Source: Cyanobacteriota bacterium
GTDB taxonomy: Bacteria > Cyanobacteriota > Cyanobacteriia > CACIAM-69d
Direction of reading: 5' to 3'
Assembly: GCA_022402445.1 (NCBI GenBank)
Contig: JAKRSF010000005.1
Span: 1-64,000 of the forward strand
Length of the DNA stretch: 64,000 nt
The position numbers were made by a program, and so were the translations under genes. Positions 1,609 to 16,819 of the stretch are shown here, piece after piece. Below the pieces are notes generated by a model. The model ran no database searches and was not told where the DNA came from. It saw only the letters and a program-made list of their open reading frames with translations. Within the stretch, counting starts at the first letter, position 1, and every line of letters starts with the position of its first letter.

Positions 1609-4600
1609 CTAGACCCCTTCGAGTTTGGCGTCGGCGTCGAGGGCGATCGCGTGGAGCATGTCGAGGGTGTCGGGGTTGGCGTCTTTCCACAGGCCGCGCT
1701 GGTGGGCTTCGAGGAGCCGCTCGGCCATGTCCCGCAAGGCCCAGGGGTTGACTTGCTTCAAAAATTCCTGGACGGGGCGATCGCCGCAGTAGGCTTGGGC
1801 GACCCCCTCATACATAAAGTCTTCGACACAGTGGGCGCTGGCGTCGTAGGCGAAGAGATAGTCCACGGTGGCGGCCATTTCAAAGGCTCCTTTGTAACCG
1901 TGGCGCATGGCTCCGGCGATCCATTTTGGGTTGATGACGCGCGATCGATAGACGCGGCTAATTTCGGCGCTGAGCGATCGCACCTGGGGCCGTTCGGGGC
2001 GGGAATGGTCACCAAAATAAGTCACCGGTTGTTGGCCGCGCACGGTGCGAACGGCGGCCGTTAATCCCCCTTGAAACTGATAGTAATCGTCGGAATCTAA
2101 GAGGTCATGTTCGCGGTTGTCCTGGTTCTGTAGAACAATTTCCATGGCGGCGAGGCGGGCCTGAAAGGCTTCCGGGGCCGCGTGGCCGATCGCCGCGATC
2201 GCGAGGTTACTGGGGGCGTCGCCGGTTTGGGGGGTGGCGGTGGTGGCGATCGCGGCGGCGGTGCTGTAGGCGTAGCTGCTCCAGTTAATGTAGGCCCGCG
2301 CCAGATCCGCGTCCGTCTCCCAATTCTGAGCTTCTATTAAACCCTGGAGACCGGCCCCATAGGCTCCGGGTTTAGACCCAAAAATGCGGTACCGGGCGCG
2401 ATCGCGAGCTTGGTTTTCCCCGAGGCCCGCCGCCTGCCACTGGGTTTCCTCCTGGCGCACACGATCAGCCAGGGGATTGTCATCTGGCGATTCATCCAAA
2501 TCCGCCACCGCCCGCACGGCACGATCAAATAGATCAATCAAATTCGGAAACGCATCGCGGAAAAAGCCAGAAATCCGCAGGGTCACATCCACCCGAGGAC
2601 GCCCCATTTGTGAGATTGGCAAAATCTCAAAGCCCACCACCCGCCGCGCCGCCCCATCCCACTGGGGACGCACCCCCAACAGGGCCAACGCTTCAGCAAT
2701 ATCGTCGCCGCCGGTGCGCATGGTGGCGGTGCCCCACACGGACAGGCCGAGGGTTTTGGGATAGTCCCCATGCTCCTGGGTGTATTGCTCCACCAGGGTT
2801 TCGGCGGCGGCGCGACCGACGGCCCAGGCGCTTTCGGTGGGCAGGGCGCGCAAATCCACGGAATAGAAGTTGCGGCCCGTGGGCAAGACTTCGGGGCGGC
2901 CTCGGGTGGGGGCTCCGCTGGGACCGGCGGGAATAAATTCGCCGTTTAAGCCCTTGAGTAAATGATGGATTTCGCGATCGCATTGACGCAGATTCGGCAG
3001 CAGGCGATCGCGGATCCAATTCAGCACGAGGGTCGTTTTGGGGCCAGGGGAATTTTTAGACGGGGGCTCAGCTTTTTCTAATAGAAGTTCTACCTGTTGA
3101 ATGGCTTCCTGTTCCAGCAGCGCGATCGCATCCCCCACCGTCCGAATTGGTGTATCTTCCCCCTGGAAACTTTTCAAAAGCGCCTGATCTGAATCGGTCA
3201 AAAAATTGCCCATTTCATCCGTCAGCGGATCGAGCCCTAGGCCCCAGTCCCGCGCGATCGCCCGCGTCAGCCCCAGCACCCCCGGATGGCCGAGCCGCGC
3301 GATCGCGATAATCAAATCCCGCAGTTGGGCACCGTCCGGGCAGCGGCCCAAGATATGCAGCCCATCGCGGATTTGCGCCTCCTTGAGGTCACATAAATAG
3401 CCATCCAGAACCGTCACCCAGTCCTCCACTTGCTCTGTTGATGGATCAATGACTTGATCCCCCCGCGATCGCGTCGCCAAATCCTGATCTAAATGCTCCG
3501 TTTTCACCAAATCCGCCACCCGTTCCGCCACCGCCTGGGTCCGCTTGGGATCTAGACTTTGGGCCTCGTAATATTCATCAATGAGGCCCTCTAATTTTTC
3601 TAGATTTCCATACAATTCCGCGCGGGTCAGAGGCGGCGTTAAGTGATCTAAAATCACCGCCTGGGCGCGGCGCTTTGCCTGGGATCCTTCTCCCGGATCG
3701 TTGACAATAAAGGGATAAAAATGGGGATAGGCCCCTAAGGCTACCTCGGGATAGCATTGCTCCGAAAGGGCGATGCTTTTTCCCGGCAACCATTCTAAAT
3801 TGCCATGCTTCCCCACATGGACGATCGCCTGGGCTTGAAACCGCGATCGTAGCCATTCATAAAAGGCCAAATATTCATGGGTGGGCTCTAGGTCCGGCGC
3901 ATGGTAATTCAAGCTGGGGTCGCGATCATAACCCCGCGATGGCTGAATTCCCACAAATATCTTGCCCCACTGGATCCCCGCGATCGCTAAATCTTCCCCC
4001 AAATCATCGGCAGGTTCATCGCCCCAGCGATCACGAATTCCCCCCTGCGCCGCCTCCGATAACGTATTAAACCAAGTGTTATAGTCCGCCCGCGAGAGGG
4101 ATTGATAGACCGTGCGCCCATGGACAAATTCCGGATCATTCGTCACCCCTTCCGTGAGCCTTTGGATCAGTTCACCCCCCGTTTTCGGTAACGGCAACCC
4201 ATCGGAATTATCCTGACCCAAATCATAGCCAGCGGCGGCCAACGCTTGGAGGATTTCCACACAGCTTTGGGGCGTATCAAGACCCACCCCATTGGCAAGG
4301 CGGCCATCACGATTGGGATAGTTCGCCAGAATCAGCGCCACCCGCCGATCACCCACCGCCGATCGCCGCAACTCACACCAACGCAAAGCCAAATCCGCCA
4401 CAAACTCCACGCGATCGCCCAGCGGTTCAACCCCAACCACCTCCGTTTCCAGCCGTTCATCGCGCCGATGGACCGCCTTGAACGCGATCGCGCGGCCCAC
4501 AATCCGCCCATCCACCTCCGGCAGGGCCACATTCATCGCCATATCGCGCGGGGCAAGGCCAAAATTACCCGCCGCCCACTGGTCCGCCGTGCCGCCACTC

Positions 4601-5526
4601 AAAATTGCCTGAATAACCGGCACATTCAATTTCTCCCATAGGCTAGATTGCATCATTTCACCGGGCCGCGCGATCGCAAATCCCGTCGTCGTAATGAGGC
4701 AATCCACCCCCGCTAACTGGGTTAATAATTCCCCCTGCACCTCCGGATCCTGAAGGGACGAAACGAAGTAGGGGCAAGGCTTTAAGCCCCGCTGGGTCAG
4801 GGCCAAACAAAGGGCATCAATCGCCGCCAGATTGCCCGACTGGAAATGGGCACGGTAGAACAAAATTCCCACCCGAGCCCCCAAATTCACCGGTTCAGAC
4901 AAGGGGCTTAAGCCCCTTGCTACCGCCGATTTATTAGATTCATTTTTACCATCAGCAGTGCCTAGCCCCGCCGAAATTGGATCATAGAGTCCCACCTTCG
5001 GCACCGATCGCGGCGGCGGCGGATTGTAGGCCGTGCCCAGGTGGCGATCGCAAAGCTCCATCAGGGCATGGCGAGCATTTTCGACGCCCCCCTCATTTAA
5101 ATACCGCCAGATTTGGTGAACCTCCGTCAGGGGCACCGTCGAGCAGGCCATCAGATCCGGATCCGGGCGATCGTCCCCAGGCAGCACCAGCAACGCTATC
5201 CCGCGATCTCGCGCCGCCCGTTCCACCACCTCCAGGCCATAGCTCCAATAGGCCCGCCCCCCCAGCAGCCGCAGGACAATCACCTGTGCGTGATTGAGCA
5301 CGTCTTCTACATAGGTATCAATCGTCAACTGCTGCTGCAACTGCAACAGATTCGCCGCCCGCACCATGGGAAACTCCGGTGGCAACGGCGCGATCGCAGC
5401 GGCCAGGGTTTGGATATCCGTATCCTTCGCCGTCAAAACCACCACCGGAGCCGGGGACTGCTCCACAAAAATCACCCCCTCCAGGGACGCATCCCAGCCC
5501 CCCGGCACTGCGGCTAGTCGGTGCAT
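1609..5526 (-). CDS. cobN: Cobaltochelatase subunit CobN
   Basis: This is the large subunit of the ATP-dependent cobalt chelatase, which inserts Co2+ into a cobyrinic-acid ring in cobalamin synthesis. At about 1305 residues it has the full CobN/BchH length. It begins MHRLAAVPGGW and has long CobN-type blocks such as IVHVGKHGNLEWLPGKS and the C-terminal GYKGAFEMAATVDYLFAYDA. Two in-frame ATGs (5532 and 5526) compete; a purine-rich GGGGGA is about 8 bases from the second and only 2 from the first, so I use 5526. A stretch of about 33 residues near position 185-217, between KVGLYD and LGARVGILFYR, is encoded by a dispersed repeat (4882-4980). ChlH is the main alternative, but the N-terminus and the cobalt-transport neighbours favour CobN. 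It is divergent from the lipoprotein-cbiL-cbiM operon. Confidence 0.93.
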   Translation of the reverse strand: MHRLAAVPGGWDASLEGVIFVEQSPAPVVVLTAKDTDIQTLAAAIAPLPPEFPMVRAANLLQLQQQLTIDTYVEDVLNHAQVIVLRLLGGRAYWSYGLEVVERAARDRGIALLVLPGDDRPDPDLMACSTVPLTEVHQIWRYLNEGGVENARHALMELCDRHLGTAYNPPPPRSVPKVGLYDPISAGLGTADGKNESNKSAVARGLSPLSEPVNLGARVGILFYRAHFQSGNLAAIDALCLALTQRGLKPCPYFVSSLQDPEVQGELLTQLAGVDCLITTTGFAIARPGEMMQSSLWEKLNVPVIQAILSGGTADQWAAGNFGLAPRDMAMNVALPEVDGRIVGRAIAFKAVHRRDERLETEVVGVEPLGDRVEFVADLALRWCELRRSAVGDRRVALILANYPNRDGRLANGVGLDTPQSCVEILQALAAAGYDLGQDNSDGLPLPKTGGELIQRLTEGVTNDPEFVHGRTVYQSLSRADYNTWFNTLSEAAQGGIRDRWGDEPADDLGEDLAIAGIQWGKIFVGIQPSRGYDRDPSLNYHAPDLEPTHEYLAFYEWLRSRFQAQAIVHVGKHGNLEWLPGKSIALSEQCYPEVALGAYPHFYPFIVNDPGEGSQAKRRAQAVILDHLTPPLTRAELYGNLEKLEGLIDEYYEAQSLDPKRTQAVAERVADLVKTEHLDQDLATRSRGDQVIDPSTEQVEDWVTVLDGYLCDLKEAQIRDGLHILGRCPDGAQLRDLIIAIARLGHPGVLGLTRAIARDWGLGLDPLTDEMGNFLTDSDQALLKSFQGEDTPIRTVGDAIALLEQEAIQQVELLLEKAEPPSKNSPGPKTTLVLNWIRDRLLPNLRQCDREIHHLLKGLNGEFIPAGPSGAPTRGRPEVLPTGRNFYSVDLRALPTESAWAVGRAAAETLVEQYTQEHGDYPKTLGLSVWGTATMRTGGDDIAEALALLGVRPQWDGAARRVVGFEILPISQMGRPRVDVTLRISGFFRDAFPNLIDLFDRAVRAVADLDESPDDNPLADRVRQEETQWQAAGLGENQARDRARYRIFGSKPGAYGAGLQGLIEAQNWETDADLARAYINWSSYAYSTAAAIATTATPQTGDAPSNLAIAAIGHAAPEAFQARLAAMEIVLQNQDNREHDLLDSDDYYQFQGGLTAAVRTVRGQQPVTYFGDHSRPERPQVRSLSAEISRVYRSRVINPKWIAGAMRHGYKGAFEMAATVDYLFAYDASAHCVEDFMYEGVAQAYCGDRPVQEFLKQVNPWALRDMAERLLEAHQRGLWKDANPDTLDMLHAIALDADAKLEGV
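4882..4980. repeat. dispersed repeat inserted in frame in cobN
   Basis: The segment contains a perfect 20-base palindrome at 4900-4919 (CAAGGGGCTTAAGCCCCTTG). The same palindrome with two changes is at 58055-58074, and a partial copy is near 35112. In cobN it reads through without a stop and encodes a low-complexity linker rich in Ser, Ala and Asn. Confidence 0.7.
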
Positions 5527-5532
5527 CGTCAT

Positions 5533-5920
5533 TTCCCCCGTACTGCGTTTAACTGCCTTAGGAATTGGGCCTGGTCAAGGTGGGCCGACCTCCCCAAAAA
5601 GCAATAAATTCTAAGCTTTTTTTGCAAATGGCGTAAACTTTTGATCTAATTTTCGAGCCAATTGTGATCCGCCTTTAAACTAACAATTTCTTAATCTCAA
5701 GATGAATCATCGGGATGCCCTTCCCATCATCCTGCAACGGCCTCAATTCCTAGGGGGTTATCTCCATTTCTTGGGGGGGAATCTGCGGCGGCCCGCGCGA
5801 TCGCGGCCTCGGTAGCGCACCGCCATCCCCGGATGGGGCATTGCCAGGGGTGGGCATTTCCCCTTAACTCGCAGTGGACCGCTGCATTGTTTCAGCGTCC
5901 ATTGGATCCTGTCGAGGTTA
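5533..5920. other. divergent intergenic region between cobN and the cbiM operon
   Basis: This gap of about 390 bases is visibly more A/T-rich than its surroundings, especially 5600-5710, and must hold the promoters of both the cobN gene and the cobalt-uptake operon. I searched by eye for a B12-box-like cobalamin riboswitch core and found none. No tRNA or convincing small gene was seen. Confidence 0.5.
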
Positions 5921-5932
5921 TTGATTATTTTT

Positions 5933-6796
5933 GTGATAAACGATTGGCAATTCCGTTGGCCCGCCCGGTGTCGTTCCATGGCCGCGATCGCCGCAGCGAT
6001 CGCCCTGGCAAGCTGCACCGCCCCAACCCCGTCTGAAGGCGAGGGTGCCACCACCGAAGGCACCGCCACCCCCGCCGCTGGCAGCAGCCTCATCACCGTG
6101 CGGGCTAACGGCGAAGCCTTTGTGCAGGAGGGGCTCACCAGTCGCGATGGCTGGCAGGTCACCTTTGATCGCCTCCTGGTGGGCATTCAAGACGTGGTGG
6201 TCCACCAAACGGAGCCCCCCTTCGATGCCCAAGCCGCCGCCCCCCTTGCGGCCCAGGTGAGCGTCCCCGTCCCCACCGCCGAACCGGTCAACCTCAAGGT
6301 GGCCGAGGGGGCTGAATTGCCCGCCGTCGGTCAAGCCACCGCCGCCCCCGGCCGCTACAATGCCCTGTCCTGGCACCTGGCCCCCACGGTGGAAACCGAA
6401 GGGGGGAACCGCGCCTCGATTCTCCTGGCGGGCCAAGCGACGAAGGATGGCCGCACGGTGCCCTTTACGATCGCGGTGGCTCCGGATTTGCGCTTTGAAT
6501 GTGGCGACTATGTGGGGGATGAGCGCAAGGGGGTCGTCACTGCCGAGGGGGGTGAGCTGGAAATTACCCTCCACTTCGACCATTGGTTTGGCGATGCGTC
6601 CCTGGCGGCGGATGATCCGATGAACCAGGAGTCCTTGGGGATCGAGCCGCTGATTGCCCTAGCCCAGGGCGATCGCCTCACCCTAGAACCCGAGGCGATC
6701 GCGCAACTGCCCGCCGCCGATCAGGAAACCCTCACGAAGGTCTTTAATAATCTCGCCCATGTGGGGGAAGGCCACTGTCGTTTACAGGAGAATTAG
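5933..6796 (+). CDS. Putative metal-binding periplasmic lipoprotein, first gene of CbiM operon
   Basis: A secreted lipoprotein of about 287 residues. A basic n-region (RWPARCR), a short Ala/Ile h-region and the lipobox LASC are followed by a Ser/Thr/Gly/Ala linker and a beta-rich domain. The C-terminal part carries FECGDYVGDERKG and LHFDHWFGDA, with a further His and Cys near the end (GEGHCRLQ). I cannot assign a named family with certainty; it resembles the DUF4382/MbnP-like group of extracytoplasmic proteins seen beside metal transporters. The start is uncertain: a TTG at 5921, the GTG at 5933 used here, or the ATG at 5978, which would leave only a very short signal peptide. It ends 6 bases before the next gene, which argues for co-transcription and, by inference, a role in delivering cobalt or nickel to CbiM. 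Confidence 0.7.
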   Translation: MINDWQFRWPARCRSMAAIAAAIALASCTAPTPSEGEGATTEGTATPAAGSSLITVRANGEAFVQEGLTSRDGWQVTFDRLLVGIQDVVVHQTEPPFDAQAAAPLAAQVSVPVPTAEPVNLKVAEGAELPAVGQATAAPGRYNALSWHLAPTVETEGGNRASILLAGQATKDGRTVPFTIAVAPDLRFECGDYVGDERKGVVTAEGGELEITLHFDHWFGDASLAADDPMNQESLGIEPLIALAQGDRLTLEPEAIAQLPAADQETLTKVFNNLAHVGEGHCRLQEN

Positions 6797-6802
6797 ATTG
6801 AT

Positions 6803-7378
6803 ATGTCGCCCCCCCTATCACCACCGTTGAGGGCTCGGTTGCGGGATCAGGGTTGGCCCACGGGCTGGCGTGCTCCCGTGGCGATCGCGCCCCTGGCCGC
6901 TGCCTTGATCCTTGGCCTTCCCACCATTGCCCGCGCCCATGGGGCCAAGCTGGATCATCAAACGGTCCAGGCGATCGAGGCGATCGCCCGCTACGATTCC
7001 GGTGAACCCATGGCCGGAGCCTCCGTGACCGTCTATGGCCCCGAGGATCCCCAAAACCCCTGGAGTACCGGCACCACCGATGGGGAGGGGCGCTTTTGGT
7101 TTCGGCCCGATCGCCCCGGCACCTGGGAACTCAAGGTGCGGCAGGCGGGCCATGGTGCCCTCGTGGCGATCGCCGTGGAAGAATCCGCCCTAACCCCCAC
7201 CGGCAGCGTTTCCCCCGGAGTGACCCCCGCCGCCGCCCCCGCCGCCCCCCTGGGGGCCACCCTCAGCCCCCCCAGCGGCGCACCCTCCCCCCTCAGCCGC
7301 TGGATTACGATCGCAGCGGTCACCTGGGGCTGCATCGGCACGGCCCTCTTTTTCTCGCGCCGCAGCCCCACCCCCTAG
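6803..7378 (+). CDS. CbiL/NikL-like accessory protein of a cobalt/nickel transporter
   Basis: A protein of 191 residues with an N-terminal signal segment ending IARA, then a mature domain that begins HGAKLDHQ. A carboxypeptidase-regulatory-like beta-sandwich follows (GEPMAGASVTVYGPED, TDGEGRFWFRPDRPGTWEL), then a Pro/Ala linker and a C-terminal membrane helix (about residues 165-183) ending in RR. This signal-Ig-like-membrane-anchor layout is that of the extra component (CbiL or NikL) found next to CbiM/NikM. If cleaved after ARA, the new N-terminus would start with His, a plausible metal ligand (inference). It sits 6 bases after the lipoprotein gene and 21 bases before cbiM. Confidence 0.75.
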   Translation: MSPPLSPPLRARLRDQGWPTGWRAPVAIAPLAAALILGLPTIARAHGAKLDHQTVQAIEAIARYDSGEPMAGASVTVYGPEDPQNPWSTGTTDGEGRFWFRPDRPGTWELKVRQAGHGALVAIAVEESALTPTGSVSPGVTPAAAPAAPLGATLSPPSGAPSPLSRWITIAAVTWGCIGTALFFSRRSPTP

Positions 7379-7399
7379 CCCCTCCAGGAGCCTTGCCCC

Positions 7400-8083
7400 A
7401 TGCACCTTCCCGACGGACTGATCCCGGCCCCCATTTGCCTCGGGGGCTATGGCCTCACGGGCTTGACCACCTGGCTGTGCCTGCGGCGCATCGATCGCCA
7501 TCCGGACCCGAGCCGTGGCATTGCCCGGGCGGCCCTGCTGACGGCGGCCTTTTTTGCGGCATCGAGTCTCCGTATCCCGATTCCGCCAGCGAGTGTGCAT
7601 TTGGTGCTCAATGGATTGCTGGGGGTGATGCTGGGGGCCTTTGCCTTTCCGGCGGTGCTGGTGGGGCTGACCCTCCAGGCGCTGCTGTTTGGCCATGGGG
7701 GCATGACGACGTTGGGGGTGAATGCGGTGCTGATGGGGTGGCCTGCCCTGGTGGCGGGGGCGATTTTTCAGCGGCGGCTGGTGCTGCGGCCTTGGTTGGG
7801 CGATCGCGGGGCGGCCCTGGTGGCGTCGGGGGTGGCCGGGAGTGTTGCCCTGGGCCTTTCGACGGCGATCTTTTTCGTGATCGCCCTGGGCACCATCACC
7901 CCCGATCTCAATGAACAGGCGGAACGGGCGGCCCTGCTGGGGTTGGCGATCGCCCATGGGCCGGTCATTCTGCTGGAGGGGCTGTTCACCGCCGCCGTGG
8001 TGGGCTTTTTGCAGCGGGTGAATCCGGAACTACTCGAGGGCCTCGGGGGGCCGCCGCGATCGCCCATCCAGGACTGCCCCTAG
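7400..8083 (+). CDS. cbiM: Cobalt/nickel ECF transporter S component CbiM
   Basis: This is the membrane substrate-binding subunit of an energy-coupling-factor transporter for Co2+ or Ni2+. The N-terminus MHLPDG provides the conserved His2 next to the free amino group. The second metal-site region is seen in SVHLVLNGLLGVMLG, and FGHGGMTTLGVNA follows. About six hydrophobic segments fill the 227 residues. MHLPDG is close to the NikM consensus MHIPDG, so nickel cannot be excluded, but the divergent cobN favours cobalt. The partner genes cbiQ and cbiO do not follow; the next gene, after 238 bases, is a signalling protein. The transporter must therefore use components encoded elsewhere or work as a solitary S component. 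Confidence 0.92.
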   Translation: MHLPDGLIPAPICLGGYGLTGLTTWLCLRRIDRHPDPSRGIARAALLTAAFFAASSLRIPIPPASVHLVLNGLLGVMLGAFAFPAVLVGLTLQALLFGHGGMTTLGVNAVLMGWPALVAGAIFQRRLVLRPWLGDRGAALVASGVAGSVALGLSTAIFFVIALGTITPDLNEQAERAALLGLAIAHGPVILLEGLFTAAVVGFLQRVNPELLEGLGGPPRSPIQDCP

Positions 8084-10283: not shown

Positions 10284-13200
10284 CTAGGCCATCCCCTTGC
10301 GGCCCTCCGCGCGGCCAAACAGGATATAGTGCTCCACCCCCGTCTCGAAGGTGCCCACATCCACCTGGGCTTTCACATCGGGATTATTGCGCAGATAGGT
10401 CTGCTCCTCGAAGGTGGGATTCGGCTGCCAGCCCGCGAATTGCCCAAAGCGAATGAACTGGTCGTAGGCATCCAGGAAGTCCCCCTGGGCGATGCCCTGG
10501 GCCACCTGGGGATGGTTCGCCAGATAGAAGTCCGCATCGAACAGCAGCGTCCCCTGGCCGCGCCCCTGGCCGATGCCCCGGATGAGATAGTGCTCGAACG
10601 GGCCACTAAACTGCCCCGCCGCGATCGCCCCCTGGGCCTCCGGATTTTCGAGGAGATATTGCGCCCCATCGAATCCAGGCGTCGGCACATGGCCTGCCTT
10701 CAAACCAAAGCGCACGAAATAGTCAAACAGGCCCGCCGCCTGACCCCCCTGCACCGCCGCCAACGCCTCCGGATGGCGCTGGGCATAGAACGCCGCATCA
10801 AACAGGGCACTTGGATTGAGCCCCGCCTTCTGGCCCGTCGAGAGGAAATGCCCCAGGCCCGCCGCCACATCCGTCGGCGCGATCGTCCCCCGCAGGTCCG
10901 GATTCGCCGCCAGGTAATAGCCCAAATCAAACAGCAGCAGCGGCGTATAGCGATTCTCAAACTGCCCAAACTTCACATAATGGTCAAAGCCACTGGTGAT
11001 CGGCCCGCCAATCAGCGGCACAATATCCGGATTCAGTTGCCGATACAGCGCCTCATCAAAGGCACCGCTGGGGCTCAGGCCCGCAAATTGCCCAAATTTG
11101 ACGTAATGGTCGAACAAATCCTGGGCCAGCCCCGCCGCCACTTCCGCCGCCGCCTGGGGAGCCTGGGCTAGGTAGAAATTGGGATCAAAAAGCAGATTGG
11201 CCAGCCCCGCCCCCGCGCCGGTTCCTAGCTTGAAGTCCAGCAGGTCGATCGCGGGCAACACGCTCAAGGGCAGCGGCGACGGTCCCCCAGGAGGAACGGG
11301 CGGTACACCGGGCTCACCGGGCGGCGGGGGCGTTGGACTCGGGGCCGGACCCGGATTGGGGCTCGGGCCGGGGGATGGGCCGGGGCCGGGGGGTACCGGT
11401 GGCACTCCGGGCGGCGTGGGTGTGCCGGGTTCACCGGGCGGCGTGGGGCTCGGGGCCGGGGCGCTGGCATCGATCGCGATCACCACCGGGAAATTGAATA
11501 ATCCATCCGGCACCCCATCGGTGGGAATGCCGATGATGCCCTTATAGGTACCCGGTACGGTGCCGCCGAACAGCAGGCGGATATTGGCCTGTTGCCCCGG
11601 CCCGAGGCTGCTGGGCAGGGGATTGCCCAACACAAACCCGGTGGGCAGTTGGATCGCCCCGAGTGTGGTTGTGTTGGCGGTGCTGTTTTGCAGGGTGAGG
11701 GTGGTTTCAAAGACGGCCCCCGGTGCGATCGCCCCCAGCACCACATCCGTCGGGGTGCCATCACTCAAGGGACCGCCCCCCGCGATCGTCACCACCAAAT
11801 TACCGGGGGACGGCAGCGGTGCGGGGGCAGGCACCGGGGTTGGCGTGGGCACCGGCGGCGGGGGTGGCGGCACCACAACGGCGGTAATAGAGGTATTCAG
11901 GTTCGCAGTACTGGCGGAGATGGCCGTGGTGCCTCCATTGGCCAACGCATTGGTCAGTTGGCGCGCGGCACCGGTGGTGAATGAGCCGCCGAAGGTGTTG
12001 TCGATCGCGCGGACCGTGAGACTGGGGGGCGCTCCGGTGAAGCCCGCCGCTGGCACAAACCGCAGCCGCGAGGTGGCCGACAGGGCCAGGGCCGTGGCAT
12101 CATCCGCGACAGCTCCCACATCGAACCAGTTGGTGCCGTCGGTGGAATATTGCCAGGTGCCTTGGGTGGCGGCGATCGCGGTATTCCCCACGATCGCAAC
12201 GCCCGTCAGGGCAGATCCCGCATCCGGATCGGTGACGATGCCGCCAAACAGGGCCGTGACGGTGTTCCCCGGTGGGTTGGCGGTGCCCGCCGCGATCGCC
12301 GCCAGGGTCGCCGTCGTCCCGGTGAAGCTAGGAGCGACATTGTTATCAATCACCGAAATCTGCAACTGACCCGTCGCCATTGAAAAGGGCGTAGTGGTGC
12401 CATTGACCGACACATCCCGCGCAACGGGCGTTTCCACCGCCCCACTGATCGAAAAGCCTCCCGTATAGGTGTTATCCACCGCCCGCACCGTCAGGGGCGT
12501 CGGAGTGCCCGTATAGCCCGCCGCTGGCACAAACCGCACCTGCGACGCCACCGACAGCATCTTGGCCGTCGCTGGGGTCACCGCACCGATGGGGCTCCAA
12601 TCCGTGCCATTGCTGGAATATTGCCAAACCCCTTCCGTCCCCGGCGCGTTATTCTCCACCACCGCTAGGCCCGTGAAGCGATTGGCAGGCGGCACCGTCG
12701 GTTCCGGCCCCGTATCATTCACCACCGTCCCAAAGGGCAGCAGCGCCGCGATCGCCACCCCCGTCGGATTCGCCGTATCCCGAACCACCGCCCCCAGGGA
12801 ACCATTGCCAGAAATCACCGGGGCCACATTCGCAGTCACACTGACCCCCAGGGCCGCTGTATTCCCCGAAATGGGCGTCGTTCCCCCACTGGTGGTCACA
12901 TTCAATGTCGCCGGTGTACCCACCCCAGTGCTGTCAGAGAACCCACCCAGGTAGGTATTATCCAGGGCATGAACCACCAGGGAATCGAGGGCGGGGGCGG
13001 TGCCGCTGAACCCCGCCACCGGCAAAAATCGCAGTTTTGAGTCCGCCTTCACCACCAGGGCCGCCGCATTGCTGACGGCCCCCACGTTCTGCCAAGTGGT
13101 GCCGCCATCACTGGAGTATTGCCACGCCCCTTCCGTCACCGGGTCGGCTGCATTGGCCGCGATCGCGATACCCGCCACCGCCGCCCCCGTATCCCCATCC

Positions 13201-16200
13201 ACAACTGCCGTCGCCCCCAGGGGAAATAGGGTACTCACCACCTCACCCGCCGACGGGAACGGAGCCTGGAACGTCGCGGGCAACGTCGGCGCAAAACCAA
13301 CAGCAAAGGCCGGAGCCGTATTCACCCCCGTCACATTTACCGTGATTGCCTGCTCCAATCCCGTGTAGGGCGCAGCAAAGTTATTCTCCCGAGACCATAG
13401 GTAAAAATTGGCCTGGAAAGTTTGAGCAGTTGCTGACTCAAACGTCAGGTTCGGTAGATCTGCGATGTTGATCTCATAGACCTCCTTCAGATCTCCGTCC
13501 GGCTCAATCTCCTCAAAACCAGGTTGAAGGCCCATATCCGGACCACCCACGGAGGTCAGGACTGTTGCCCCATTTCGCACCGTCACCCCCCCCGGTACCC
13601 CATCGAAAATGATTCGTCCCGGCGTAAAGACCAGGGTATCCCCCGGAGTATTCGCCCGCCACGCACCAATAGTTTCTGCCGAACCTGCATCCGTATCTCG
13701 GGCTGCCACGCGGGTGGCCACGGGATTGAAGCGGCTACCAATCGGAATTGGCGTATCCTTCAAACCTGTGATTGTTGAATCACTCGGCGTCAAGACGGGA
13801 GCTGTTGCCTCATTTTCTACTTCGATGTCATAGGTTTGGCTAACGACATTGACCAGATCACTCACCGCTACCGAAATACCAATAGCGGGGGTGGCACTGA
13901 GCAGATTGGCAACGTAGGGAGTTGGGGTAAAGACCATACCCCGCAGGGCCGCACTGATGTTCGCGGGGGAACCCGTTAATTCCACTGCGCTGCTTGCATC
14001 TCCTGTCACCGTGAGCCCTGGCAGGGTTGTAAGGATTGCGTTGTCGAGGTCAATGGTGCCGTTGATGCCCCCTAAATTCACAATGACACTGGGGGAATCC
14101 GCATCCTCCACTACAATTGCCCGATCTGTCTTGGCACTTGCAGATGTGTTGTCAATACTAGCCGTAGCCGTCGGGTCAAAAGTTAGTGTTCTTGGTCTAT
14201 TCAACAAACCCGCATCTGGAGCCGGGTTGTTTTCCTTCATTGCCGGAGCATCAATGAAGGTAAAGGGAATTGCAACCCCATCTTTTCTCAATGAAATTAC
14301 CGGCGGCGCACTCACCAACAACTCGAATGCCCCCACATCCTGCTGACCCGTCGGTCGGGCAATTCCCCGCTGATCTACCGTTGCGGCACTGCTGACTGCC
14401 CCATTAAAGGCTGGATTGACCGCCGGCGCTACGGGGGCGATGAGGGCATGGGTTTTGGTGGTGCCGCCATTCAGCGCCAAGGTCGTATTGAAGCGGGCTG
14501 GACCTAGCAAGCTATTGTCAAGGTCAACGATGGTGCCCGCGATCGAGCCGGTGGTTGCGGATGATCCACTGCCTGCCGGTTGCCCAGAGACACCGAAAAA
14601 GTCAGAGAAGTTTTTGATGATTGAGTTAGTGACGTTGTAGTTCCTGCCTGCGGGGGTAGTTGCACCACCCTCCGTTACGATCGCGCGGTCACCACCAACC
14701 CCCAGAAAAGTCGAGTGGCTAGCATTGAGCGTCACCACGCCATTTGTAAGTCGAATAACACCTGAGTCCGAGCTTACATTACCGGAGAAGGTCGAATTTT
14801 CCACAACAACATTGCCGCGACCGACTCGAATTGTTGATTTGTTACCACCAGCTCCAACGTTGTTGAGAATAGAGCTTTGACGAATGTTAAAGCTGCCATC
14901 AGTTGTACCTGTAACGAAAATTGCAGAGCCCTGGGCCGTAGTCTGGCTCCCTTCGATGGAAGTGCCACTGAGGGTTATATTTCCGCCCGAGATATCAACG
15001 TAGATCCCCGCGCCTGCCCCCGTGTAGGTAGAGCTGCCACCAGTGATGGTCATGCCAGACAGGGTGACGATGCGGTTACTGCCAATTTGAAAAGCTCGGG
15101 TGTCGGTGCGGGAGCGAATGGTGAGCAGATTGGCCCCAGGACCGGTAATTGTGACGTCCCGGGTGATATCTAAGTCACCCACAGTCGCATCAACAGCAGT
15201 TACCCCTTCTACAGGACCAAGCGCAAGAGTAATCGTTTGGGGCGTACTAAAAGCAGAATCAAAAACAATCGTGTCGTTCGTTCCGTAGGCATCACCAGTC
15301 GCCACCACACCATTTAGATCCGAGCCTGCATTGATGGCAATGATCGCTTCCCGCAGCGTCGTGGCCCCATCAGCGGCAATGGTATCGGCAGTGGAATTCA
15401 CCGTAATGGTGGCGAGGGTATCGCGGTAGGCGGCCAGGAGATTTCGAGACACGGCCACATCGGTTTCAACCTGGCCAATGAATCGTTCAAAATCCCAATC
15501 TCCGCCGTAGCCGCTGAGATCATCGGACGCGGCAATGTCGGCCCCAAGCTGTTGGTGCAGTTGCTGCAAGAAGGCTTCGCCCGTGGCTCCGGCGGCCACG
15601 TTACAGCCATAGATGTGCAAATCCGCTCCGGGGGCGATCGCGGTGGCCCAGGTGGCCAACTCATCGGCGCGATCGCCCAGGGCCGCCAAATCCAGCGTCG
15701 AGGAGCCCAATTGCAGGGAACCCGAGTCCCCGTGGGAAATCAGATCAATCGCCCGCAGGCCCGATCGCCCATTGAGGGCCGTCGAAATCTGGGCAATGCC
15801 GTCCTGGGTCGGATCCAGAATCAACACATCGGTGGTGGAGCGATCAATCCCCGCCAACAGGGTATCGAGATCTCCCACCGCCCCATCAATAATCGCGAGG
15901 CGATCGCGCGGAGCCGCCGACCGGCCAAACCGCAGCGCCCCCGTCAGCCAATCGGTGCCGAGGTCCTGGAGATTGAGGCTACCCAGGTCTAGGTTGCCAA
16001 GGTCCACATTGCCCAGATCGAGGCTATTGACCCAATCGCCCACCTGATTCAGATCGATGCCCCCCAAAACGCCGCCAAAGGCATCGTCGAGGCCCGACAG
16101 ATCCAGCCCCTTGATCCAGCGCCCCACATCGGCAGGATTTTGTGTGGCGACCCATGCCTGGAGGGCGGGGCCGTTGCGATCGAGGAACGTGGTCACCCAG

Positions 16201-16376
16201 GGGCGCACGGTTTCCCCCAACTCCAGCAGGGCACCGGCCAGGGCGACGGGATTGCCCGCAAAGGGGCTGAAGGTGTAGCCCAGGGCCGCCACCGGCAGTT
16301 GGTCAAACCCCAGTTCGCTCAGCCGGTGGGTCAATCCTGAGAGGGCGGTGGGGGCGTTGAAGGCTTGAGTATCCAT
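10284..16376 (-). CDS. Giant DUF4347 / beta-helix / repeat surface protein
   Basis: A 2030-residue mosaic protein, probably extracellular. Residues 90-140 carry short DLGNL-like repeats. A DUF4347 domain follows at about 155-320, with His215 in DLISHGDSGS and Cys258 in IYGCNVAAGATG. Next is a right-handed beta-helix of the choice-of-anchor type (about 325-690; TVNSTADTIAADGATTLREA). Three repeats of about 155 residues come next, each containing a WQYSS(D/N)G unit and a VRAxDNTYxGGFS unit (about 1010-1500). Pro/Gly-rich linkers precede a C-terminal block of seven repeats of about 43 residues (1730-2030). No classical signal peptide is visible; DUF4347 proteins of cyanobacteria are typically large and exported, so a dedicated secretion route is inferred. 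The His and Cys pair resembles clan CD cysteine peptidases, but activity is unproven. DNA at 13167-15633 lacks HIP1 entirely. Confidence 0.85.
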   Translation of the reverse strand: MDTQAFNAPTALSGLTHRLSELGFDQLPVAALGYTFSPFAGNPVALAGALLELGETVRPWVTTFLDRNGPALQAWVATQNPADVGRWIKGLDLSGLDDAFGGVLGGIDLNQVGDWVNSLDLGNVDLGNLDLGSLNLQDLGTDWLTGALRFGRSAAPRDRLAIIDGAVGDLDTLLAGIDRSTTDVLILDPTQDGIAQISTALNGRSGLRAIDLISHGDSGSLQLGSSTLDLAALGDRADELATWATAIAPGADLHIYGCNVAAGATGEAFLQQLHQQLGADIAASDDLSGYGGDWDFERFIGQVETDVAVSRNLLAAYRDTLATITVNSTADTIAADGATTLREAIIAINAGSDLNGVVATGDAYGTNDTIVFDSAFSTPQTITLALGPVEGVTAVDATVGDLDITRDVTITGPGANLLTIRSRTDTRAFQIGSNRIVTLSGMTITGGSSTYTGAGAGIYVDISGGNITLSGTSIEGSQTTAQGSAIFVTGTTDGSFNIRQSSILNNVGAGGNKSTIRVGRGNVVVENSTFSGNVSSDSGVIRLTNGVVTLNASHSTFLGVGGDRAIVTEGGATTPAGRNYNVTNSIIKNFSDFFGVSGQPAGSGSSATTGSIAGTIVDLDNSLLGPARFNTTLALNGGTTKTHALIAPVAPAVNPAFNGAVSSAATVDQRGIARPTGQQDVGAFELLVSAPPVISLRKDGVAIPFTFIDAPAMKENNPAPDAGLLNRPRTLTFDPTATASIDNTSASAKTDRAIVVEDADSPSVIVNLGGINGTIDLDNAILTTLPGLTVTGDASSAVELTGSPANISAALRGMVFTPTPYVANLLSATPAIGISVAVSDLVNVVSQTYDIEVENEATAPVLTPSDSTITGLKDTPIPIGSRFNPVATRVAARDTDAGSAETIGAWRANTPGDTLVFTPGRIIFDGVPGGVTVRNGATVLTSVGGPDMGLQPGFEEIEPDGDLKEVYEINIADLPNLTFESATAQTFQANFYLWSRENNFAAPYTGLEQAITVNVTGVNTAPAFAVGFAPTLPATFQAPFPSAGEVVSTLFPLGATAVVDGDTGAAVAGIAIAANAADPVTEGAWQYSSDGGTTWQNVGAVSNAAALVVKADSKLRFLPVAGFSGTAPALDSLVVHALDNTYLGGFSDSTGVGTPATLNVTTSGGTTPISGNTAALGVSVTANVAPVISGNGSLGAVVRDTANPTGVAIAALLPFGTVVNDTGPEPTVPPANRFTGLAVVENNAPGTEGVWQYSSNGTDWSPIGAVTPATAKMLSVASQVRFVPAAGYTGTPTPLTVRAVDNTYTGGFSISGAVETPVARDVSVNGTTTPFSMATGQLQISVIDNNVAPSFTGTTATLAAIAAGTANPPGNTVTALFGGIVTDPDAGSALTGVAIVGNTAIAATQGTWQYSTDGTNWFDVGAVADDATALALSATSRLRFVPAAGFTGAPPSLTVRAIDNTFGGSFTTGAARQLTNALANGGTTAISASTANLNTSITAVVVPPPPPPVPTPTPVPAPAPLPSPGNLVVTIAGGGPLSDGTPTDVVLGAIAPGAVFETTLTLQNSTANTTTLGAIQLPTGFVLGNPLPSSLGPGQQANIRLLFGGTVPGTYKGIIGIPTDGVPDGLFNFPVVIAIDASAPAPSPTPPGEPGTPTPPGVPPVPPGPGPSPGPSPNPGPAPSPTPPPPGEPGVPPVPPGGPSPLPLSVLPAIDLLDFKLGTGAGAGLANLLFDPNFYLAQAPQAAAEVAAGLAQDLFDHYVKFGQFAGLSPSGAFDEALYRQLNPDIVPLIGGPITSGFDHYVKFGQFENRYTPLLLFDLGYYLAANPDLRGTIAPTDVAAGLGHFLSTGQKAGLNPSALFDAAFYAQRHPEALAAVQGGQAAGLFDYFVRFGLKAGHVPTPGFDGAQYLLENPEAQGAIAAGQFSGPFEHYLIRGIGQGRGQGTLLFDADFYLANHPQVAQGIAQGDFLDAYDQFIRFGQFAGWQPNPTFEEQTYLRNNPDVKAQVDVGTFETGVEHYILFGRAEGRKGMA
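10287..11189 (-). repeat. seven tandem repeats of about 43 residues in the DUF4347 protein
   Basis: Each unit starts FDxxFYLxxNP or FDxxYYLAANPD and ends HYxxFGQxAGxxP. Units are 42-44 residues long, seven in a row up to the C-terminus. Similar units occur at the ends of large cyanobacterial exoproteins. A role in surface attachment or export is inference. Confidence 0.85.
11880..13350 (-). repeat. three tandem repeats of about 155 residues in the DUF4347 protein
   Basis: Copies start near NTAPAF, NVAPVI and NNVAPSF and share TEGxWQYSSxG, LRFVPAAGF/YTG and VRAxDNTY elements. They look like cadherin-like/Ig-like surface modules. Coordinates are approximate. Confidence 0.7.
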
Positions 16377-16738
16377 CGGTTTCAGGCTGCGGTAGGGCCA
16401 ATGCAGGGACGATTGGAGGGGGGCGCGATCGCGGGGGGAAGGGGCGATCGCGGGGGAGCAGACCGGACGGGGTCTCTGGGGAAATCTAAAGGTTTGGGGC
16501 TGATGCTTGACCTGATGCCTTATCTAAAGACTAGACGATGGGCGGGGCGGGAAAGTTGCTAGGGCCGCATCGCCAAGGCTTTGATTTGTGTTCTAGCTTA
16601 CCCAGGGGATCGATGCCTGCGATCGCGATCGCACCGCCGATTTCTATCGGTCCAGATGGCCTTGGTCAAGGGGGCGGCCACCGTCGGCAATGGGGCAAAA
16701 TCCGACGCGATCGCGGCAAAAACCCCACAAACCCCCAA
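16377..16738. other. intergenic region upstream of the DUF4347 gene
   Basis: About 360 bases without a supported gene. It contains several HIP1 copies and should hold the promoter for the large DUF4347 gene. No RNA gene was recognised. Confidence 0.4.
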
Positions 16739-16765
16739 CAAAAAACCCCCAGCCGGGGCCGGGGG
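16739..16765 (-). terminator. Rho-independent terminator after the TrpD2-like gene
   Basis: On the minus strand a G/C hairpin (CCCCCGGC...GGCTGGGGG, 16746-16765) is followed by a run of six T. It lies 55 bases after the stop at 16820 and would end the two-gene unit of NDH-2 and TrpD2-like protein. Confidence 0.7.
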
Positions 16766-16819
16766 CAAAATCGTCAGGGTGCATCTACCATTGCTTTGTT
16801 CTGGGGGATGGGTGGCCCA

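Follow-up and report, generated by a model that had tools for sequence, protein, structure and literature searches.

Three genes in the window, the 64,000-nucleotide stretch of cyanobacterial DNA that was analysed, very probably constitute nikK-nikL-nikM of a NikKLMQO nickel ECF transporter of the cyanobacterial type, whose nikQ and nikO genes lie at two separate places elsewhere in the genome. Nickel transport by the whole operon has been shown in Synechocystis; here there is homology, conservation of the operon and the presence of all five subunits, and by analogy the same substrate would be expected in the source organism. The system is of a known kind, a nickel ECF transporter with scattered genes, and as such is ordinary and easily mislabelled. 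The main value of the analysis is a correction, in that a probable nickel system bears a cobalt-transporter annotation, and the locus also illustrates how an ECF operon may seem to lack parts when its T and A components are simply encoded elsewhere.

The locus and its counterpart in Synechocystis

The source genome (13 contigs, 4.08 Mb, completeness 99.9%) carries at this site three consecutive plus-strand ORFs, spaced by 6 and 21 bases. nikK (5921..6796; start codon uncertain, TTG at 5921 or a more internal codon) encodes a lipoprotein with an LASC lipobox and Cys32, nikL (6803..7378) a predicted periplasmic protein with a signal peptide and a C-terminal membrane anchor, and nikM (7400..8083), annotated as cbiM, the S component. 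cobN (1609..5532, minus strand; TIGR02257, 1652 bits) is a neighbour only, outside the system, and is separated from nikK by a divergent intergenic region of 388 bases (5533..5920) that lacks an Rfam riboswitch. A gene for an EAL/GGDEF regulator lies downstream of nikM; no CbiQ or CbiO gene adjoins the three genes in the window, and no CbiN gene lies beside the window CbiM, which is preceded by nikL and followed by the regulator gene. Elsewhere in the window, Rfam gives a match at 16738-16790 to the nitrogen stress-induced RNA NsiR1 (54.4 bits), and a 2030-aa protein encoded at 10284-16376 has a DUF4347 domain.

These ORFs and their profile matches agree with a sequence-only reading of the same DNA, which had described a three-gene unit of a lipoprotein, a NikL-like protein and CbiM, divergent from cobN. 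The second ORF product features a CarboxypepD_reg domain (1.3e-9) and a sub-threshold match to NF058648 (39.5 bits against a cut-off of 100), and this profile is likewise sub-threshold on the NikL of Synechocystis salina. The third is a CbiM protein by PF01891 (1e-48) and NF004906 (270.9 bits, cut-off 205), and matches the solved CbiM structure 4m58 from residue 1 on.

In Synechocystis sp. PCC 6803, nikKLMQO (sll0381-sll0385) is a nickel ECF transporter whose deletion slowed growth, left urease undetectable and reduced hydrogenase activity to about one tenth, while growth in the presence of the chelator NTA stopped unless nickel, not cobalt, was added (PMC5904137). The downstream primer of that study, P4nik, has an exact match just past the end of the five-gene operon in Synechocystis salina (L159, and L074 as well), which ties the lipoprotein to Sll0381; the upstream primer, P1nik, had no match in five genomes from the genus Synechocystis. 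As the lipoprotein family heads a five-gene operon with the nikKLMQO gene order that is conserved across cyanobacteria, it corresponds to the cyanobacterial NikK. We thus infer that the window lipoprotein is a NikK of the Sll0381 type, by synteny and the primer match rather than by direct alignment. The window K, L and M proteins are 45%, 45% and 56% identical to those of the Synechocystis salina operon. The two systems share the first three genes, their order and their families, and orthologues of Q and O are present in the window genome; whereas Q and O belong to the operon in Synechocystis, here they lie on two other contigs, and nikK is flanked divergently by cobN.

The T and A components

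A CbiQ gene is located at C9:574815-575642 (TIGR02454 above cut-off), whose product is 45-46% identical to the CbiQ of the Synechocystis salina operon (L074), and a CbiO gene at C11:379257-380045, whose product is 52% identical to the CbiO of that operon, compared with 40% for the next-best ATPase of the source genome. Both are orphans, with no S component adjoining either. A second CbiQ-family protein, on C7, was not retrieved by the operon-CbiQ search. Because matching CbiQ and CbiO proteins are encoded elsewhere in the genome, the K-L-M transporter is split, not incomplete, and the separately encoded Q and O presumably work with the window K-L-M proteins. The absence of CbiQ and CbiO noted from the window sequence thus holds for the immediate surroundings of the operon but not for the genome.

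Matches to the operon CbiQ and CbiO are present in all 23 lipoprotein genomes that were checked, either linked or scattered. Some of these matches are weak, namely those to CbiQ in G092, G180 and G248 (34-35%) and to CbiO in G321 (37%). The CbiO match is interrupted by an in-frame stop in G092 and G180; in G005 this is true of the CbiQ match and of the partial CbiO match alike. Several genes following cbiM were considered as candidate subunits and rejected. In two genomes of the window's family, an ABC gene (G005, L112) and a gene of the same length (G004, L034) are LptB-like and are each followed by an LptF/G-like gene, and neither was accepted as CbiO; in four genomes belonging to a single other family, long ORFs in the same position were rejected as CbiQ by eye.

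Nickel, cobalt and rival readings of the locus

The substrate is most likely nickel, by analogy with the Synechocystis transporter. In the proposed mechanism, NikK would be lipid-anchored in the periplasm and NikL would be periplasmic with a C-terminal membrane anchor, and both would present Ni2+ to NikM, which would hold it via Met1, His2 and His67, a ligand set that follows from established knowledge of NikM/CbiM. These three NikM residues are conserved in 38, 39 and 39 of 39 sequences, respectively. NikL has two histidines that are invariant in 37 of 37 sequences and could share in putative metal handling: His117 and His46, the latter probably at the N terminus of the mature protein. The separately encoded NikQ and NikO would drive uptake through ATP hydrolysis, and the imported nickel would go to urease and Hox hydrogenase. 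Urease (C13) and HoxH (C9) are both encoded in the source genome, and urease, an enzyme common in cyanobacteria generally, occurs in 38 of 41 lipoprotein genomes.

The cobalt annotation comes from the S component. The Synechocystis-type NikM (L074:6262-6906) reaches 319 bits with NF004906, an NCBIfam equivalog named cobalt transporter CbiM. A tree of 61 CbiM proteins places the window CbiM with members of its own family (support 100/98), inside the K-linked clade and far from other cyanobacterial CbiM proteins. The naming of this clade as cobalt transporters is probably a misnaming and, since the Synechocystis member is a nickel transporter by genetics, cyanobacterial annotations under NF004906 probably name the wrong metal.

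The alternative that K-L-M imports cobalt for B12 synthesis and is expressed divergently with cobN must nevertheless be weighed, and we consider it unlikely. It fits the position of cobN, 388 bases from nikK on the opposite strand, and the naming of the S component as a cobalt transporter by both NF004906 and Pfam. CbiM and NikM are inseparable by motif, and nickel and cobalt cannot be separated from sequence for the NikL and K-linked CbiM families. Cobalt was also predicted by Zhang et al. for some proteobacterial NikKLMQO operons near B12 genes (PMC2667541). The equivalent operon is, however, nickel-specific by genetics (PMC5904137), and cobN adjoins nikK in none of 120 related loci, an arrangement that is unique to the source genome. 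(A second cobN-adjacent locus, L201, was rejected, as the gene in question lies about 5.5 kb away and, because it shows only 28% identity, rather encodes a ChlH-type chelatase subunit.) No cobalamin riboswitch was detected with Rfam upstream of nikK in the window or in the relatives scanned, yet HupE of the same genome has one: a riboswitch at C9:54719-54880 is followed by genes for DUF1636, HupE and CobW proteins (L261:2026-4881, on contig C9 of the source genome, G000). In Synechocystis and marine cyanobacteria, the literature regards HupE as transporting cobalt (PMC4284471), and this cluster likely serves cobalt uptake and handling and is a better cobalt candidate than K-L-M. In one relative (L073), a cobalamin riboswitch lies more than 4 kb from nikK on the opposite strand. 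Cobalt ECF systems of the CbiMNQO kind feature CbiN, a B12 riboswitch or a conserved B12-gene neighbourhood, and the window system has none of these. The pairing with cobN, which had been taken to suggest cobalt strongly, therefore loses its force in view of the nickel-transporting equivalent, the uniqueness of the adjacency and the HupE/CobW cluster.

Less probable still is that K-L-M is a solitary S-unit importer that works without T and A components, with the C9 CbiQ and C11 CbiO serving another substrate. In several lineages the K-L-M genes are indeed unlinked to those for Q and O, but the operon-type CbiQ and CbiO matches in 23 of 23 lipoprotein genomes checked, weak as they are in some, argue against it, as does the orphan state of both genes in the source genome, where no other S component lies beside them. 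The suggestion that CbiM might act alone here is accordingly superseded by the finding that T and A are both encoded elsewhere. An intact cbiMNQO operon at another site, which together with a lack of metal binding by the lipoprotein had been named beforehand as grounds for abandoning the sequence-only reading, was not found; there is no second CbiM in the source genome.

The NikK family and its predicted fold

NikK matches no Pfam or NCBIfam family above threshold. The proposal that the lipoprotein in the NikK position is not of the DUF4198 type was borne out, as PF10670 (DUF4198) has no match in the window lipoprotein or in 41 relatives, and the protein may well pass metal to the S component, as had been suggested. 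The DUF4198-type NikKLMQO/NikMNQO systems of other bacteria resemble the window system in combining CbiM/NikM and NikL with an extra periplasmic component, but differ in that this component is a DUF4198 protein; three NikK subtypes are given in PMC2667541. Weak sequence similarity to DUF4382 (PF14321), a domain of unknown function, was seen in 22 of 42 NikK members (best E 4.3e-5); the window NikK scores 15.3 bits, below the gathering score of 25, and the match was not used as an identification. Searches of the PDB by sequence, with a single sequence or a profile, gave no meaningful match, and a search of a plasmid collection gave none.

Of 386 genomes searched from the phylum, 39 have a match to the lipoprotein at E < 1e-40. 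All 39 encode CbiM, compared with 171 of the 386 overall, although these 39 genomes are mutually related and the co-occurrence is therefore not a set of independent events. Adding two further genomes from the window's family gives 41 lipoprotein loci, in 34 of which the lipoprotein gene lies within about 4 kb of those for NikL and CbiM; in six others the lipoprotein gene stands by itself and CbiM is encoded at another site, and the remaining locus is at the end of its contig. The association with CbiM proposed for this lipoprotein thus stands, as the family is not found mostly away from CbiM. A pattern scan of a contig collection confirmed 282 relatives, and nearly all of the best 80 of these are labelled as cyanobacteria. 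The lipoprotein had been called uncommon, which is apt in that no database family model covers it, but not as to its distribution. Among the scanned contigs, L134, L139 and L198 are from MAGs labelled Chloroflexi or Gracilibacteria and carry nikK genes close to cyanobacterial ones, and are possibly mis-binned.

Gene order was compared in 120 loci, made up of the best 80 of the 282 relatives and 40 from the genome searches, with some genomes in both. The order lipoprotein-NikL-CbiM-CbiQ-CbiO is complete in 61 of these, and a further 20 lack only a detected CbiO. Only the first three genes are present in 17 loci and only the first two in 2, and the lipoprotein is alone in 20, several of them at contig ends. 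Linkage of all five genes is therefore variable within the family and is no requirement for membership.

The lipobox Cys32 is kept in 37 of 41 relatives. Residues that are invariant in 42 NikK sequences include C194, H218, D220, H221, H280, H285 and C286; in the other NikK sample, H218 is present in 40 of 41 sequences, and C194, D220, H221, H280, H285 and C286 are invariant. An AlphaFold2 model of NikK (pLDDT 86, pTM 0.78) has its best fold match in MbnP (PDB 7l6g; Z 10.7 over 185 residues, 3.4 Å; Foldseek E 4.6e-4), with the next entry at only Z 5.7. MbnP is a periplasmic copper protein/lipoprotein with which NikK shares a predicted fold at 10% identity, where sequence similarity is undetectable. 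The MbnP Pfam model, PF20243, has no match in the source genome at E up to 10, and membership of NikK in the MbnP family by sequence was rejected on this basis.

A shared fold of this kind, as modelled, in itself says nothing about NikK function. We infer that NikK binds metal, and tentatively suggest, with somewhat more doubt than confidence, that cyanobacterial NikK may be an MbnP-fold lipoprotein whose HxDH, CG and GHVGEGHC motifs pick up Ni2+ and pass it on to NikL and NikM. If true, this would link a nickel-delivery protein to a copper-lipoprotein fold and distinguish the cyanobacterial protein from the DUF4198-type NikK found in other bacteria. NikK is of interest because it lacks a family model, has a strongly conserved set of His, Asp and Cys residues, and unexpectedly matches a copper-lipoprotein fold; its fold is the one point that is apparently little described.

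Two variations were observed among the relatives. In two genomes of one family (L071:7156-7950 and L084:7831-8643), NikK lacks the lipobox Cys and its gene lies away from CbiM; judging from the sequence, these proteins may be soluble instead of lipid-anchored. In four genomes of one genus (L077:8686-10962, also L080, L088 and L091), nikK and nikL are separated by a gene for an Asp-rich protein of 758-794 aa that carries RTX calcium-binding repeats as well as a choice-of-anchor K domain.
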